DNA of 64,000 nt from Streptomyces mirabilis (GTDB taxonomy: Bacteria > Actinomycetota > Actinomycetes > Streptomycetales > Streptomycetaceae), in assembly GCF_018310535.1 (NCBI RefSeq), contig NZ_CP074102.1, positions 6,386,001-6,450,000 of the forward strand. The letters are read 5' to 3'. A program made the position numbers and the translations under genes. The notes below the pieces were generated by a model. It did no database searches and was not told the origin of the DNA. It saw only the letters and a program-made list of their open reading frames with translations. How positions within the stretch are numbered: the first letter of the stretch is position 1; each line of letters opens with the position of its first letter. Below are positions 17,318 to 58,556 of this stretch, in pieces.

Positions 17318-18382
17318 ATGAGCGCTGTGAACCCCGCTGGAGGCAACACCGCGGCGGGCCGTTCCTGGCCCGTGGTGCTGAACGGCCTGCTCGAGGGCCG
17401 CGACCAGAGCGCGGACGACACGGCCTGGGCGATGGACCGGATCATGAGCGGCGAGGCGACGGACGCGCAGATCGCCGGGTTCGCGGTGGCGCTGCGGGCC
17501 AAGGGCGAGACGGTCGAGGAGATCTCCGGTCTCGTCCGGACGATGTACGAGCACGCCAATGTGATCGAGGTGCCGGGGGACACGGTCGACATCGTCGGTA
17601 CGGGCGGTGACGGCGCGAAGACGGTGAACATCTCCACGATGTCGTCGATCGTCGTGGCCGGGACCGGCGCCAAGGTCGTCAAGCACGGCAACCGGGCCGC
17701 GTCCTCCGCGTCCGGTGCCTCGGACGTCCTGGAGAAGCTCGGCGTCAATCTGGACCTGACGACGAAGCGGGTGGCCGAGGTCGCGGAGGAGGCCGGGATC
17801 ACCTTCTGCTTCGCGGTGAAGTTCCACCCGGCGCTGCGTCATGTCGCGGCGGCGCGGGGGCAGTTGGGGATCCGGACCACGTTCAACGTGCTGGGTCCGC
17901 TGACGAACCCGGCGCGGGTGAAGGCACAGGCCGTCGGGGTCGCGGACCTGCGGATGGCGCCGATCGTGGCGGGCGTGTTCGCCGAGCGCGGCAACTCCTC
18001 GCTCGTCTTTCGCGGCGACGACGGCCTGGACGAACTGACCACCACCGCGACGTCCCGGGTCTGGATCGTCCGCGACGGCAAGGTCACCGAGGAGCGCTTC
18101 GACCCGCGTGACGTCGGCCTCGAACTCGTCCCCGTGGAGGCCCTGCGCGGCGCCGACGCGTCCTACAACGCGGACGTCGCCCGTCGCCTGCTCAACGGCG
18201 AGACGGGGCCCGTACGGGACGCCGTGCTCCTGAACTCCGCGGCGGCCCTCGTCGCCCTGTCCCCGACCGACGCACCGCTCGCGGACCAGCTCCGCGCCGC
18301 GATGGCGAAGGCGGCGGAAGCGATCGACTCGGGGGCGGCGAAGCGAACGCTGGAACGCTGGGTGGCAGCGAGCCAGTCGTAG
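17318..18382 (+). CDS. trpD: Anthranilate phosphoribosyltransferase
   Basis: A 354-residue cytosolic enzyme that transfers phosphoribose from PRPP to anthranilate in tryptophan synthesis. The PRPP loop [17 protein letters not shown] and the anthranilate-site [12 protein letters not shown] are intact. ATG 17318 has AGGAG upstream; the frame is open earlier, without similarity. It is separate from other trp genes and follows qcrB directly, the same neighbour as in M. tuberculosis. No attenuator was seen here, unlike trpE(G) at 46.4 kb. Confidence 0.96.
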
Positions 18383-18485
18383 TCCACTTCTCCGCCCGCG
18401 GACCGGTGGGGTTGCTCGCGAAGTTCCCCGCGCCCCTGGGGCGGGGCTGCGCCCCGATTCCCCGCCCGCCCCGGTTTTGTTCGTC

Positions 18486-18563
18486 CGCGCAGTTCCCCGC
18501 GCCCCTTTTTGGGGGCGCGGGGAACTGCGCGATCTTTTGGGGGTCTGGGGGCGGAGCCCCCAG
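18486..18563. repeat. Intergenic hairpin repeat, copy C
   Basis: Within the 611-bp gap after trpD, a perfect 20-bp stem (18486-18505 with 18512-18531, 6-base loop rich in T) is followed by CTGGGGGC-GGA-GCCCCCAG at 18545-18563. The first hairpin contains the typical Streptomyces core CAGTTCCCCGCGCCCC and may end trpD transcription. Confidence 0.85.
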
Positions 18564-18683
18564 GTGGGGATGGGAAGGGTAGGGGCGGCGGGGGCGAGGA
18601 ACGTGGGGCCGTCCCCCACTCGGCATCCCGGTATACGGACGCCGGGTTGCGGGCGGAAGATCTTGTGGCAGGATGCCGTATCA

Positions 18684-18797
18684 GGTCATGAGTGACAGCC
18701 ATCAGGCCCCGGCCGGCTGTCCGGCAACCCTCCGTCCGTGGCGGGGTGCCCCGGGTGAAGACCAGGCCGTAGGCAGCGAGGTCTACGGCAAGCGCGG
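18684..18797 (+). ncRNA. SAM-IV riboswitch aptamer
   Basis: The sequence follows the actinobacterial SAM-IV family almost base for base in its conserved parts: GGTCATGAGTGACAGCC, GGCTGTCCGGCAACCCTCC, GGTGGGGTGCC-like GGCGGGGTGCC, CCGGGTGAAGACCAGG and the distal GGTCTACGGCAAGCGCGG pseudoknot region. SAM-IV binds S-adenosylmethionine and usually lowers expression of sulfur/methionine genes. Here it precedes a six-codon ORF and a class V PLP enzyme. The helices were read by eye; a covariance-model score was not computed. Confidence 0.92.
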
Positions 18798-18835
18798 ACC
18801 CCTCGAGAATCCCAGGGGTCCTGGTCGTTCGAGGG
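18796..18835 (+). promoter_or_regulatory. Candidate SAM-IV expression platform
   Basis: Two exclusive pairings are possible. GGACCCCT (18796-18803) pairs perfectly with AGGGGTCC (18814-18821), while CCCTCGA (18800-18806) pairs perfectly with TCGAGGG (18829-18835), which holds the ribosome-binding site of the ORF at 18844. The second would hide that site; the first would free it. Which state SAM favours cannot be told from sequence. Confidence 0.6.
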
Positions 18836-18843
18836 AGCCTTCT

Positions 18844-18864
18844 GTGAGCAAGCGAATGCGATAG
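18844..18864 (+). CDS. Six-codon leader ORF (MSKRMR)
   Basis: GTG AGC AAG CGA ATG CGA TAG, with GAGGGAG 6-12 bases upstream. It lies directly behind the SAM-IV platform and 129 bp before the PLP enzyme. The peptide is basic and holds one internal methionine. It could be a true leader peptide whose translation, or stalling at CGA codons, relays the riboswitch state to the downstream gene; a chance ORF is possible given its size. Confidence 0.45.
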   Translation: MSKRMR

Positions 18865-18993
18865 GGCGTAGAGCCCCGCCTCCGCACACCCCTTTTGCCT
18901 TTCCTCCCTGCGCCGAGCCGTGCAGCCGCACACCCGTACCCCCGTGCACCCGGCCCGCGCAGCGATTCCGCCTGCCTCTCACAGGAGCTCGCC

Positions 18994-20355
18994 ATGTCTG
19001 TCTCCACCGCTGCCGCCGACCAGACCGTTTGCGCCCCCCTGCCCGTTCTGGGCCGAGACGTCACCGTCCCGCTCGTGACCGGCGGCGAGGTCACCTACGC
19101 CGCGCTCGACTACGCCGCCAGCGCCCCCGCCCTCCAGCGGGTGTGGGACGACGTCGCCGCGTACGCCCCGTACTACGGCAGCGTGCACCGCGGCGCCGGG
19201 TACCTCTCCCAGCTGTCCACCGACCTCTTCGAGAACGCCCGCAGGACCGTCGCGGAGTTCCTCGACTGCCGGGGCGACGACCAGGTCGTCTTCACCCGCT
19301 CCACCACCGACTCCCTCAACCTGCTCGCCGCCACCCTTCCGGCCGACTGCCAGGTGTTCGTCTTCGAGACGGAACACCACGCCTCGCTGCTGCCGTGGAA
19401 GGACGCCCGGGTCACCTACCTCAACGCGCCCCGCACCCCGCAGGAGGCTGTCACGGCCCTGGAGCGGGCCCTCGCCGCCCGTGACCCCCACGGCCCGGCC
19501 CTGGTCTGCGTCACCGGCGCCTCGAACGTCACCGGCGAGCTGTGGCCGGTGCGCGAGCTGGCCGCCGCCGCGCACGCGCACGGTGCCCGGATCGTCCTGG
19601 ACGCCGCCCAGCTCGCTCCGCACCACCCGGTCTCGGTGCGGGACCTCGACGTCGACTGGGTCGCCTTCTCCGGGCACAAGCTGTACGCGCCGTTCGGTTC
19701 GGGCGTGCTCGCCGGCCGTGCCGACTGGCTGCGCGAGGCCGAGCCGTACCTCGCGGGCGGCGGCGCGAGCCGCAAGGTCACGCGGCGGGTGGACGGCGGC
19801 GTGGACGTGGAGTGGCACGAGAGCGCGGCCCGGCACGAGGCCGGTTCCCCGAACGTCATCGGCGCCTACTCCATCGCCGCCGCCTGCAAGGCGCTGACCG
19901 AGGCCGGTTTCGACACGCTCGTCGCCCGCGAGGAGCAGCTGATCGGGGCCGTCCGGGCCGGTCTGGCCGAGGTGCCCGAGGTCCGCGTCCTGTCGCTCTT
20001 CGGTGACGACGCCCCGCGCGTCGGCGTCATCTCGTTCGTCGTCGAGGGCTGGAACAGCTCGCACTTCGCGGCCGCGCTGTCCGCCGAGTACGGGATCGGG
20101 GTGCGGGACGGTCTCTTCTGCGCCCACCCGCTGGTACGGACGCTGCTCGGCAGCGATCCGCAGACGCAGGGGGAGTGCGGGGCGCCCGAGGCGGCGCCCG
20201 GGGAGAAGTCCCTCAACGCGATCCGCGTCAGCTTCGGGGCCGGTACGCCCGACGAGCATGTGGAGCGGTTCGTGCGTGCGGTGAAGGAACTGGTGCGGGA
20301 CGGTGCGAAGTGGAACTACCGCACGGAGGACGGCCGCTGCGTCCCGGCGGTCTGA
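18994..20355 (+). CDS. Class V PLP enzyme, cysteine desulfurase-like, under SAM-IV control
   Basis: A 453-residue aminotransferase class V protein. The Schiff-base lysine is K229 in SGHKLYAPFG and the PLP-phosphate region TRSTTDSLN is near residue 105. A cysteine, C376 in VRDGLFCAHP, sits where group II (SufS/Csd) desulfurases have their catalytic cysteine, suggesting cysteine desulfurase or a related cysteine lyase. ATG 18994 has CAGGAG upstream. The SAM-IV riboswitch implies a role in sulfur or methionine metabolism. An epimerase-like or desulfhydrase activity would also fit; the exact reaction is not known. Confidence 0.88.
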   Translation: MSVSTAAADQTVCAPLPVLGRDVTVPLVTGGEVTYAALDYAASAPALQRVWDDVAAYAPYYGSVHRGAGYLSQLSTDLFENARRTVAEFLDCRGDDQVVFTRSTTDSLNLLAATLPADCQVFVFETEHHASLLPWKDARVTYLNAPRTPQEAVTALERALAARDPHGPALVCVTGASNVTGELWPVRELAAAAHAHGARIVLDAAQLAPHHPVSVRDLDVDWVAFSGHKLYAPFGSGVLAGRADWLREAEPYLAGGGASRKVTRRVDGGVDVEWHESAARHEAGSPNVIGAYSIAAACKALTEAGFDTLVAREEQLIGAVRAGLAEVPEVRVLSLFGDDAPRVGVISFVVEGWNSSHFAAALSAEYGIGVRDGLFCAHPLVRTLLGSDPQTQGECGAPEAAPGEKSLNAIRVSFGAGTPDEHVERFVRAVKELVRDGAKWNYRTEDGRCVPAV

Positions 20356-57238: not shown

Positions 57239-58440
57239 ACGGTCTGCTCCGTGAGTGCTGTGCTGAAGCGCCCGGGGGCGAAGGGGCGGGCCTCTTCCGG
57301 AAGCTCGCCGGTGGTCAGGACGTGCGCCATGGCGTCCCCGGTGACGGGCGTGAGCAGGACGCCGTTGCGGTAGTGCCCGGTGGCCAGCAGCAGCCCGTCG
57401 AGCGCGGTCGGGCCGAGCAGTGGAGCGTTGTCGGGCGACCCCGGCCGCAGGCCCGCGCGCGTCTCGGTGAGCGGCAGCTCGGTGATTCCGGGCACCAGCT
57501 CATGGGCGTCGCGCAGCAGCTCGTAGACCCCGCCCGCGGTCACCGTCGTGTCCCAGCCCAGCTCCTCGCTGGTGGCGCCCACGACGAGCTCACCGTTCTC
57601 CCGCGGCACCAGATAGACCTGGCTGCCGCGCACCACGGCCCGCACGGTCCGGCTCAGGAACGGCGCGTACCGCTTCGGCACGGTCAGCCGCAGCACCTGA
57701 CCCTTCACGGGCCGTACGGGCGGCAGTACGTCGGCGGGCACGCCCGGGAGCTTTCCGCTGAGGCTCCCGGCGGCGAGCACCACCTGCCCCGCCGCCAGCC
57801 GTTCATCGTCCGTCGTGACGACCCCGGCGGCCCGGTCCCGTACGACGGTCAGGCGCTCCGCCCACGTCCGGTGGAACTCCACTCCGGCCCGCTCACACGC
57901 CGTGACCAGGGCCTTCGCAAGCCGGCGCGGGTCGATCTGGTGGTCTGCGTCGACCCGCAGCCCGCCGCGCACGCCCGGCGCGAGCATGGGCTCCAGACGG
58001 CGGCACTCCCGGCCGCTGAGCCACTCCGATTCGAGCCCCGAGCGGTGTTGCAAGGCATGCAGTTCGCGCAGGTGGGCGCGGTCGTCGGCGTCCAGCGCGA
58101 CGGCCAGCGTGCCGCACCGGCGGTAGCCGAGGTCCTGGCCGCTCGCCTCGGTGAGTTCGGCGGCGAAGTCGGGATAGCGGCGTGCGGAGGCGAGGTTCAG
58201 GCCCAGCAGGGTCTGCTCGCCGTAGTGCAGTTCGGTGACGGCGGCGAGCATTCCGGCGGCCACCCGTGCCGCTCCGCCGCCCGGCTCGGGGTCCACGACC
58301 GCGACGGTGAACCCGCGCTGCGCGGCCCGCCAGGCGGTCACGAGACCGATGATCCCGCCCCCGATGACGAGGACGTCCGACGTACGTGCGTCCGATGACG
58401 GCGCGTCCGATGAACGTGCAGGTGTACGCGTAGGCGACAT
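57235..58440 (-). CDS. thiO: Glycine oxidase ThiO
   Basis: A 401-residue FAD amine oxidase that converts glycine to dehydroglycine for ThiG. The N-terminal FAD motif VLVIGGGIIGLVTAWRAA follows an Ser/Asp-rich leader of about 20 residues; GLRPGSPDNAPLLG and HYRNGVLLTP are at the C terminus. ATG 58440 is just downstream of the TPP riboswitch. First gene of thiOSG. Confidence 0.95.
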   Translation of the reverse strand: MSPTRTPARSSDAPSSDARTSDVLVIGGGIIGLVTAWRAAQRGFTVAVVDPEPGGGAARVAAGMLAAVTELHYGEQTLLGLNLASARRYPDFAAELTEASGQDLGYRRCGTLAVALDADDRAHLRELHALQHRSGLESEWLSGRECRRLEPMLAPGVRGGLRVDADHQIDPRRLAKALVTACERAGVEFHRTWAERLTVVRDRAAGVVTTDDERLAAGQVVLAAGSLSGKLPGVPADVLPPVRPVKGQVLRLTVPKRYAPFLSRTVRAVVRGSQVYLVPRENGELVVGATSEELGWDTTVTAGGVYELLRDAHELVPGITELPLTETRAGLRPGSPDNAPLLGPTALDGLLLATGHYRNGVLLTPVTGDAMAHVLTTGELPEEARPFAPGRFSTALTEQTV

Positions 58441-58444
58441 GGGC

Positions 58445-58556
58445 GTCCAGCCCCTCCCTTCGCCGGCATGACCCGGATCAGGTTCGTACGGTCGGAGGCC
58501 GCCAGCCTCCCTCTCAGCCCGGTGCGTCCGGGCTCCCGCGAGTGCTTTACTTCGCC
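58445..58556 (-). ncRNA. TPP riboswitch (THI element)
   Basis: On the minus strand the conserved blocks occur in order: GGGAGCCCGG, CCGGGCTGAGAGGGAGG, CGAACCTGATCCGGGTCATG, and CCGGCGAAGGGAGGGG, the TPP-binding consensus. It ends about five bases before the thiO ATG and overlaps the ribosome-binding region (GGGAGGGG), so translational repression by thiamine pyrophosphate is likely. Confidence 0.96.

Follow-up and report, generated by a model that had tools for sequence, protein, structure and literature searches.

Does the SAM-IV riboswitch ahead of a cysteine-desulfurase-like gene of Streptomyces mirabilis act on that gene, or on a much smaller reading frame placed between the two? The question comes from a 64,000-nucleotide stretch of the chromosome (the window), for which a sequence-only reading had listed a SAM-IV aptamer, two exclusive pairings behind it, and a Shine-Dalgarno sequence (SD) serving a six-codon open reading frame, MSKRMR. 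The enzyme gene would follow, its ATG at 18994 lying 129 nt past the stop of this upstream ORF (uORF). All these elements are present where that reading had placed them:

18684..18800, + strand: SAM-IV riboswitch aptamer (Rfam RF00634)
18734..18739, + strand: GUCCGU of the P3 loop, one strand of the aptamer pseudoknot and the complement of the tail GCGGAC
18794..18799, + strand: 3' pseudoknot strand GCGGAC, whose GGAC is common to it and the 5' arm of hairpin H1
18831..18837, + strand: SD of the uORF, GAGGGAG, with a 6 nt spacer (from sequence)
18844..18864, + strand: leader ORF GTG AGC AAG CGA ATG CGA TAG (MSKRMR*), with a homologue in 141 of 144 Streptomyces loci
18853..18858, + strand: codons 4 and 5 of the uORF, CGA-AUG (Arg-Met), invariant throughout the 138 parsed loci
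18983..18987, + strand: the enzyme gene's own SD, AGGAG (from sequence)
18994..20355, + strand: PLP enzyme of 453 aa, aminotransferase class V / cysteine-desulfurase-like (PF00266, 252.3 bits)

The aptamer matches its covariance model on the + strand with 114.7 bits (E 1.8e-20; gathering score 38), and SAM binding is predicted from this membership. SAM-IV riboswitches feature a pseudoknot of the P3 loop with the 3' tail: in the window, GUCCGU and GCGGAC pair at 6 of 6 positions. Across the Streptomyces loci described below, 5 or 6 of the 6 positions are paired in 133 of 137 readable loops and 4 of 6 in the other four, the base of this count being 137 of the 138 uORF loci, with the loop of L122 unreadable.

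A long terminator-like inverted repeat of 20 pairs (18486-18531) lies between the SAM-IV unit and an upstream gene that we take to be trpD-like. In many loci a -10-like hexamer, [TC]ANNNT, recurs about 14-15 nt ahead of the aptamer. As the hairpin cuts the unit off from the upstream gene and the hexamer recurs, transcription probably begins at the aptamer. At the other end of the unit, the best NCBIfam match of the enzyme is SufS (TIGR01979), with 251.8 bits under a cut-off of 475.1: SufS-type cysteine desulfurases are its closest kin, although it misses the curated cut-off. The window also contains a TPP riboswitch (58438-58549, - strand, 64.9 bits).

The proposal had been made to depend on the leader ORF recurring in other Streptomyces, and it does recur. 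SAM-IV matches occur in 147 of 150 Streptomyces genomes, and the main locus was read in 144 of these 147 (G055, G073 and G096 were left out). The uORF is found in 141 of the 144 loci; the remaining three gate the enzyme start codon directly. Automatic parsing covered 141 loci, 138 with a six-codon ORF and SD and three without (L085, L112, L120), while three more, read by eye (L121, L124 and L125), carry MIQRMR, MIQRMR and MRMRMR.

Among the 138 parsed loci the start codon is GTG in 131, ATG in 6 and TTG in one, always 6-9 nt from the SD. Codons 2 and 3 are variable (MSKRMR 103, MNQRMR 6, MIQRMR 4, MMQRMR 4, and others). Codons 4 and 5 are CGA-AUG in every one of the 138, as is the UAG stop with a G after it; codon 6 is CGN in 130, and all four wobble bases occur. 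The surroundings drift freely: the linker ahead of the uORF measures 25-97 nt, and the interval from uORF to coding sequence (CDS) 66-298 nt, with a median of 111 (101 Streptomyces leaders with a mapped CDS start). Start codons, spacer, wobble and stop, set between widely varying flanks, form a pattern that position by position looks like that of a translated ORF. The initiation site behind SAM-IV belongs, as proposed, to a leader ORF conserved as coding sequence.

The same alignment could be read differently, with the conserved CGAAUGCGNUAGGGC stretch as an RNA element, a binding site for protein or RNA in which the ORF is incidental. Nucleotide conservation indeed exceeds what the peptide needs, the rare CGA and the UAG being invariant in 138 of 138 loci. 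Per 1000 codons, 33 long ORFs of the window contain CGA 3.8 times and CGC 37.1 times; invariant though rare, CGA was chosen at the codon or RNA level and not at the peptide level. Such an element would not, however, explain the pattern of start codons and wobble bases, nor a TGA-ended variant: at L363 a TGA at codon 6 cuts the uORF to MSKRM*, as if codon 6 were dispensable and CGA-AUG not.

The conservation itself goes beyond chance: 131 of 150 Streptomyces genomes contain the 15-mer AGCGAATGCGNTAGG, against 2 of 150 for its reversed control. Copies of the motif outside the riboswitch context speak against an RNA element as well. Scanning the named genomes for the motif AGCGAATGCGNTAGGGC gave at least 119 stretches, 114 of them with enough upstream sequence. 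Among the matches listed, an in-register start codon and SD are present in 102 of 102 copies with SAM-IV upstream and in 0 of 12 without it; SAM-IV was judged here by a core regular expression, and only L264 was re-scored by cmscan, whose 99.5 bits placed it in the SAM-IV group. Directly gated loci are free of CGAATG, save L341 and L354, where it lies within a conserved coding motif. Finally, the longest run of pairing between the uORF core and the aptamer is 3.9 versus 4.3 in shuffles, and between the core and the downstream interval 5.1 versus 4.7, a small excess with no convincing partner for the invariant CGAAUG. We therefore regard an RNA element with an incidental ORF as highly doubtful, and continue with a presumably translated leader.

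Between the aptamer and this leader lie the two proposed pairings, termed here H1 and H2:

18796..18803, + strand: 5' arm of H1 (GGACCCCU / GGACCCCT), in 131 of 138 loci; the CCCU in it is a candidate anti-SD
18814..18821, + strand: 3' arm of H1 (AGGGGUCC / AGGGGTCC), candidate anti-anti-SD, from its conservation and pair-preserving changes
18800..18806, + strand: CCCUCGA, 5' strand of H2, the alternative helix, which has 7 bp in the window
18829..18835, + strand: 3' strand of H2 (UCGAGGG), overlapping the SD; 7 bp, in the minimum free energy (MFE) structure of the isolated linker

The first pairing is borne out. H1 (GGACCCC:GGGGUCC) occurs in 131 of the 138 uORF loci, where shuffled linkers give a mean of 41 and a maximum of 52, and it covaries: pairs 1-7 are kept in 131 of 131 loci with the arm, through one-sided and two-sided changes. 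Pair 3 is A-U in 102 loci and G-U in 29; pair 4 is C-G in 100, U-A in 16 and U-G in 15; pair 7 is U-G once, and pair 8 is not kept. Since GGAC is common to the 5' arm of H1 and the pseudoknot tail, H1 competes with the pseudoknot, and H1 and the ligand-bound form are mutually exclusive. In the seven loci without H1 the SD lies within a few nucleotides of the pseudoknot, which is a simpler way of covering it.

Only the core of the second pairing holds up. H2 measures 7 bp in the window, and a core of 3-4 bp is common to the loci: its 5' side is CCCU in 127 of 130, its SD side AGGG in 104 and AGGA in 26. The CCCU is conserved because H1 itself contains it. Pairings of at least 5 bp reach the SD region in 104 of 138 loci, only a slight excess over 50 shuffles, which average 92 and peak at 103; many of the 104 use partners other than those of H2. 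Past its core H2 shows no covariation, with a total of 186 for the loci's own strands versus a permuted mean of 201.5 (117 versus 123.3 on 81 distinct rows).

Folding of the isolated platform gave little change in SD accessibility: the median is 0.25 when free and 0.26 with the pseudoknot tail blocked. With blocking, 11 of 131 loci lose more than 0.2 and two gain more than 0.2; of the shuffled controls, 3.5% fall and 5.2% rise. H1 is in the MFE structure of just 30 of 131 loci; that of the window is the SD-covered form, the H1 form being 4.1 kcal/mol worse. The region of the H1 5' arm pairs with the SD over 5 bp or more in 95 of 131 loci, as an uncontrolled count. An equilibrium switch of the SD is thus unsupported, tail blocking having given no general accessibility change. 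A kinetic, co-transcriptional switch of the platform is possible.

The sign of the control can be argued from loci in which the leader is exchanged for the enzyme. In the three Streptomyces loci without a uORF (L085, L112 and L120), the gated SD serves the enzyme's own start codon. In other genera of Streptomycetaceae, SAM-IV is found in 118 of 121 genomes, and 34 loci from 15 genera were read. An RM(R)-type ORF, in the variants MSKRMR, MTKRMR, MKQRMR, MKRMR and MSKRM, is present in genera g117, g119, g121, g122, g124, g126, g129 and g130 and in three of five g120 loci. The enzyme is gated directly in the other two g120 loci and in all seven read loci of g115, g123 and g127. Longer DL-type leaders, plus one MQMMR, are found in g116 and g128, and two loci (L381 of g118, L394 of g116) fit no class.

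The MQMMR locus (L390, g128) has a five-codon ORF after SAM-IV, with two internal Met codons and no CGA; it is possibly a Met-codon form of the leader. Genus g116 also has back-to-back SAM-IV pairs on opposite strands, about 145-216 nt apart (G464:C1:1096541-1096906, G454:C2:180862-181262, G474:C169:14065-14498), from which two divergent leaders would run out of one intergenic region.

Outside the family a class search matched 188 of 296 genomes, and 84 loci were read from a search with at least 150 matches listed. In 36 of the 84, which have this enzyme type by motif, the enzyme looks directly gated; in six of these 36 another ORF came first in the scan and was taken as chance. Unclassified among the 84 are L312, L329, L340, L348, L350 and others without the motif.

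A single gating site serves the leader in some loci and the enzyme in others, an argument for one sign throughout. Where the CDS is gated directly, blocking its SD can have no effect other than repression; parsimony then gives the uORF form the same sign, with SAM turning expression off and leader translation turning it on. We consider it quite likely that SAM blocks translation of the uORF, and reasonably likely that the uORF acts positively on the gene. With the opposite sign, a ribosome ending just before the C-rich stretch that follows the uORF would aid Rho loading or trap ribosomes, and SAM would raise the enzyme. The metE uORF of Mycobacterium tuberculosis does suppress its gene according to the accessible text of PMC11260477, but the relatives and the three Streptomyces loci that put the enzyme CDS at the gated SD make a repressive leader very improbable here.

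How a positive leader could reach the gene depends on the interval after it, which contains one candidate element:

18873..18930, + strand: C-rich, G-poor stretch, candidate Rho-utilisation region (from base composition)

The intervals have a mean composition of 45% C and 22% G; over the 40 nt that start 10 nt past the stop, C is at 51% and G at 16%. Of the 101 leaders with a mapped CDS start, 62 contain a 40-nt stretch in which C reaches at least 50% and G does not exceed 15%, the other 39 having no stretch that reaches this threshold. Random 111-nt pieces of the window contain one in 1.65% of cases, and one is present in 2 of 37 ORF-upstream controls, a small set of fixed length. A search of 18380-19020 in the window gave no terminator-like site 3' of the aptamer or uORF: the only sites there are those at 18486-18531, upstream of the aptamer. 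In Streptomyces clavuligerus, the part of PMC8269248 available to us reports from Term-seq and RNA-seq a premature transcript unit, with a predicted SAM-IV, upstream of CRV15_21540; this gene encodes an aminotransferase class V PLP enzyme, and its read drop into the CDS is among the most extreme.

The C-rich interval, the lack of a terminator-like site and the premature unit of S. clavuligerus together favour early termination of the Rho type. Translation by itself would leave the C-rich stretch exposed, since the six-codon ORF stops short of it, and pausing must be assumed. Another element of the interval was considered and rejected: CCUCC occurs within 45 nt after the uORF in 86 of 138 loci, and its sequestration of the enzyme SD scores -11.3 kcal/mol for a locus's own pair, -10.7 for other loci and -11.2 for shuffled sequence.

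Translation could also be handed on without any termination of transcription, if ribosomes finishing the uORF restarted at the enzyme gene and SAM gated their loading. Reinitiation of this kind is reported for the ppe2 uORF of M. tuberculosis (PMC11260477, in its accessible text), and a possible counterpart occurs at L159, where the ORF behind SAM-IV has 13 codons and its TGA and the downstream CDS ATG overlap by 4 nt, resembling the coupling arrangement reported for ppe2. The Streptomyces leaders, however, have to bridge 66-298 nt (median 111 over 101 leaders) to a CDS with a good SD of its own, and we find reinitiation improbable for them.

We now propose that the SAM-IV signal is probably passed on via translation of the leader ORF, and not directly to the enzyme gene. 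The proposal builds on the aptamer, the overlap of pseudoknot and H1, the conserved, translated-looking uORF and the C-rich interval, all of which are read from sequence. Taking the mechanism as a whole, we lean modestly towards a SAM-IV OFF switch whose translational platform gates a leader ORF, the translation of which keeps the gene on.

At low SAM the tail GCGGAC would be free, H1 would form as the RNA emerges, and the SD would stay open for a ribosome to translate GUG-AGC-AAG-CGA-AUG-CGN-UAG. At high SAM the pseudoknot would capture GCGGAC and H1 would be lost; the freed CCCU could then cover the SD as an anti-SD and leave the leader untranslated. Leader translation would be needed for, or would favour, expression of the enzyme gene: a ribosome parked on CGA-AUG or at the UAG, just before the C-rich stretch, would keep Rho off the nascent RNA, and with no leader ribosome the transcript would end early. 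In the geometry of tnaC, likewise, a ribosome at the end of the leader stands directly ahead of a Rho-utilisation region, and CGA is a slow codon. We hold the Rho step to be plausible, if somewhat short of likely, and put forward ribosome pausing at CGA-AUG tentatively.

The codon pair is not confined to Streptomycetaceae. Outside this family, short SAM-IV uORFs mainly precede a type of gene that we take to be O-acetylhomoserine sulfhydrylase-like (by motif only, among the 84 loci). In-frame CGA-AUG is found in eight of these uORFs, from seven other families: MCIRRMCCR, MSCQRMPRR, MTCRMPF, MTCRMRR, MCCCRMN, MNHHRMRR, MCRCRMTGVAGA and MCCCCRMTRR. A ninth short uORF, MRCCPLTRSH, is without it, as are the Cys-rich uORFs of family f4, presumably mycobacterium-like. 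Elsewhere among the 84 loci CGAATG is found only in L341 and L354, inside the coding motif mentioned above. Cys codons lie within three codons of CGA-AUG in seven of the eight uORFs. Counting 16 short peptides from outside the family, hand-picked with and without CGA-AUG, we find 31 Cys in 158 residues, and Cys in 14 of the 16; left out of this set were L337 (31 residues, MCCC start), L348, L350, L342, L159 and the DLxRV-type leaders L321 and L353.

Another form of leader stands in the S. mirabilis genome itself. Its second SAM-IV copy (G000:C1:483192-483338; L002, 1501-1758; 73.7 bits) is followed by a 24-residue leader, MARRSTNGLTRRLHIDLQRVSSAY, that belongs to NCBIfam NF042934 with 31.9 bits (cut-off 27), and then by an ORF that we assume, from its looks, to be a glutathione S-transferase. 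The leaders of L321 and L353 are members as well, with 28.0 and 40.2 bits. Reading by eye shows leaders of a similar kind behind five more second copies in Streptomyces (L127-L131); tried as NF042934 members, those of L127 and L128 score 17.9 and 17.7 bits, below the cut-off of 27, and they resemble the DLLRVNSALC type. MSKRMR, with 6 residues, is too short to be scored against this profile, 20 residues being needed for the comparison. Given the Streptomyces uORF, its Cys-rich relatives and the NF042934-type second copies, SAM-IV with a leader peptide is, at the level of sequence, a recurrent combination that comes in at least three forms.

These relatives raise the alternative of a SAM-gated leader-peptide attenuator. 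The uORF would report the supply of aminoacyl-tRNA, through Cys and Met codons in the relatives and Met in Streptomyces, and stalling, allowed only at low SAM, would open the gene: two inputs, one output. The Cys content of 14 of the 16 peptides, the Cys codons near CGA-AUG in seven of eight and the NF042934 'putative leader peptide' behind the second SAM-IV of this genome all fit such an attenuator. So do published systems: in mycobacteria, polycysteine leaders reportedly work as attenuators that respond to cysteine (Canestrari 2020, as cited in the available part of PMC13236596), and for Cys-rich, terminator-less leaders of actinobacterial cys operons the accessible portion of PMC1262725 suggests Rho. 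MSKRMR, however, has no Cys and one internal Met, with no run of codons for a regulating amino acid, and its Arg codon, which a Met sensor would not need, is as invariant as its Met codon. Nor does the searched part of the window (18380-19020) offer a terminator-like site past the aptamer, or the loci a leader-specific pairing to the enzyme SD (-11.3 kcal/mol versus -10.7 and -11.2, as above). For the Streptomyces leader an attenuator thus seems unlikely, though it deserves to be kept in mind.

A wider picture is more speculative than probable. SAM-IV in Actinobacteria would often gate leader peptides and not genes: SAM would decide on ribosome loading, and the ribosome would then be timed by a short ORF through its fixed, slow CGA-AUG (beside Cys codons in the relatives). 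One mRNA leader would then read both SAM and the charging of sulfur-amino-acid tRNA. The Streptomyces leader would have shrunk to six codons, leader and enzyme CDS would have been swapped behind the same switch, and in at least eight families the conserved CGA-AUG would serve as a pause signal written in codons.

If SAM does work through the six-codon ORF, annotation and reporter designs that consider only the enzyme start overlook the real target of the SAM-IV unit. The conserved CGA-AUG pair would, if all this is true, offer a minimal and testable system for control by very short ORFs in high-GC bacteria. The loci in which nature has put the enzyme CDS in the leader's place, behind the same switch, already amount to a comparative experiment on whether the uORF acts positively or negatively.

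Several known systems share parts of this arrangement. In E. coli tnaC the ribosome stalls through the peptide and tryptophan, and no riboswitch is involved. The likeness lies in a ribosome that has reached the end of a short leader, with a Rho-utilisation region, a candidate one in our case, immediately following; the difference is the stalling by peptide and tryptophan without a riboswitch, stalling at MSKRMR being our assumption. The tna operon is also mentioned in the accessible portion of PMC1262725. The polycysteine leaders, with NF042934, NF042936 and NF042933, are likewise short; NF042934 members stand behind the SAM-IV copies of L002, L321 and L353, and Cys-rich uORFs follow SAM-IV elsewhere. 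MSKRMR differs in having no Cys and in being too short for these models, and since the mycobacterial polycysteine leaders are leaderless by the title of Canestrari 2020, they should have no riboswitch. In Xanthomonas a SAM-I riboswitch also senses uncharged initiator tRNA, according to the abstract of PMC7270179: it too is a SAM riboswitch with a second, translation-linked input at the anti-SD, but there the tRNA binds the platform directly, and that abstract names no uORF.

For Streptomyces lividans, the reannotation in PMC8079986, in its available part, places a SAM-IV unit before SLIV_26975 (cysteine desulfurase), and its leader-peptide table has, to the same extent, no entry at this unit. 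The sequence-only reading had stated that no SAM-IV example relayed through a peptide was known, and we likewise found none in the open-licence literature searched. Riboswitch-to-uORF relays as such have nevertheless been published (PMC11260477 and PMC12810186, in their accessible text), which narrows the claim of novelty to the SAM-IV variant.

Between aptamer and gene, such relays contain a conserved ORF that has its own SD, a feature shared by 141 of 144 Streptomyces loci. The metE and ppe2 B12 riboswitches of M. tuberculosis act with uORFs (PMC11260477, accessible text). There, as in our proposal, riboswitch and uORF act jointly on one gene, and translation of the ppe2 uORF is required for expression; that uORF, however, shares 4 nt with the start of the CDS and acts for the most part through reinitiation, whereas the Streptomyces gap is 66-298 nt. 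Similar in another way is the pe20 Mbox of M. tuberculosis, which controls a uORF together with Rho-dependent premature termination (PMC12810186, in the part available). As in our proposal, this is an actinobacterial riboswitch whose translational platform has a conserved uORF, ahead of the annotated gene, under its direct control. The ligand of the Mbox is Mg2+, its aptamer is a different one, and its uORF is a named gene (rv1805A) with a homologue outside the riboswitch context; the Streptomyces uORF has six codons behind SAM-IV and a rare-codon core, and off-context copies of its motif, among the matches listed, are not ORFs. Riboswitch-to-uORF relays are therefore known; the one proposed here is a SAM-IV variant, unusual for its conserved codon pair and for the swapping of leader and CDS behind one switch.
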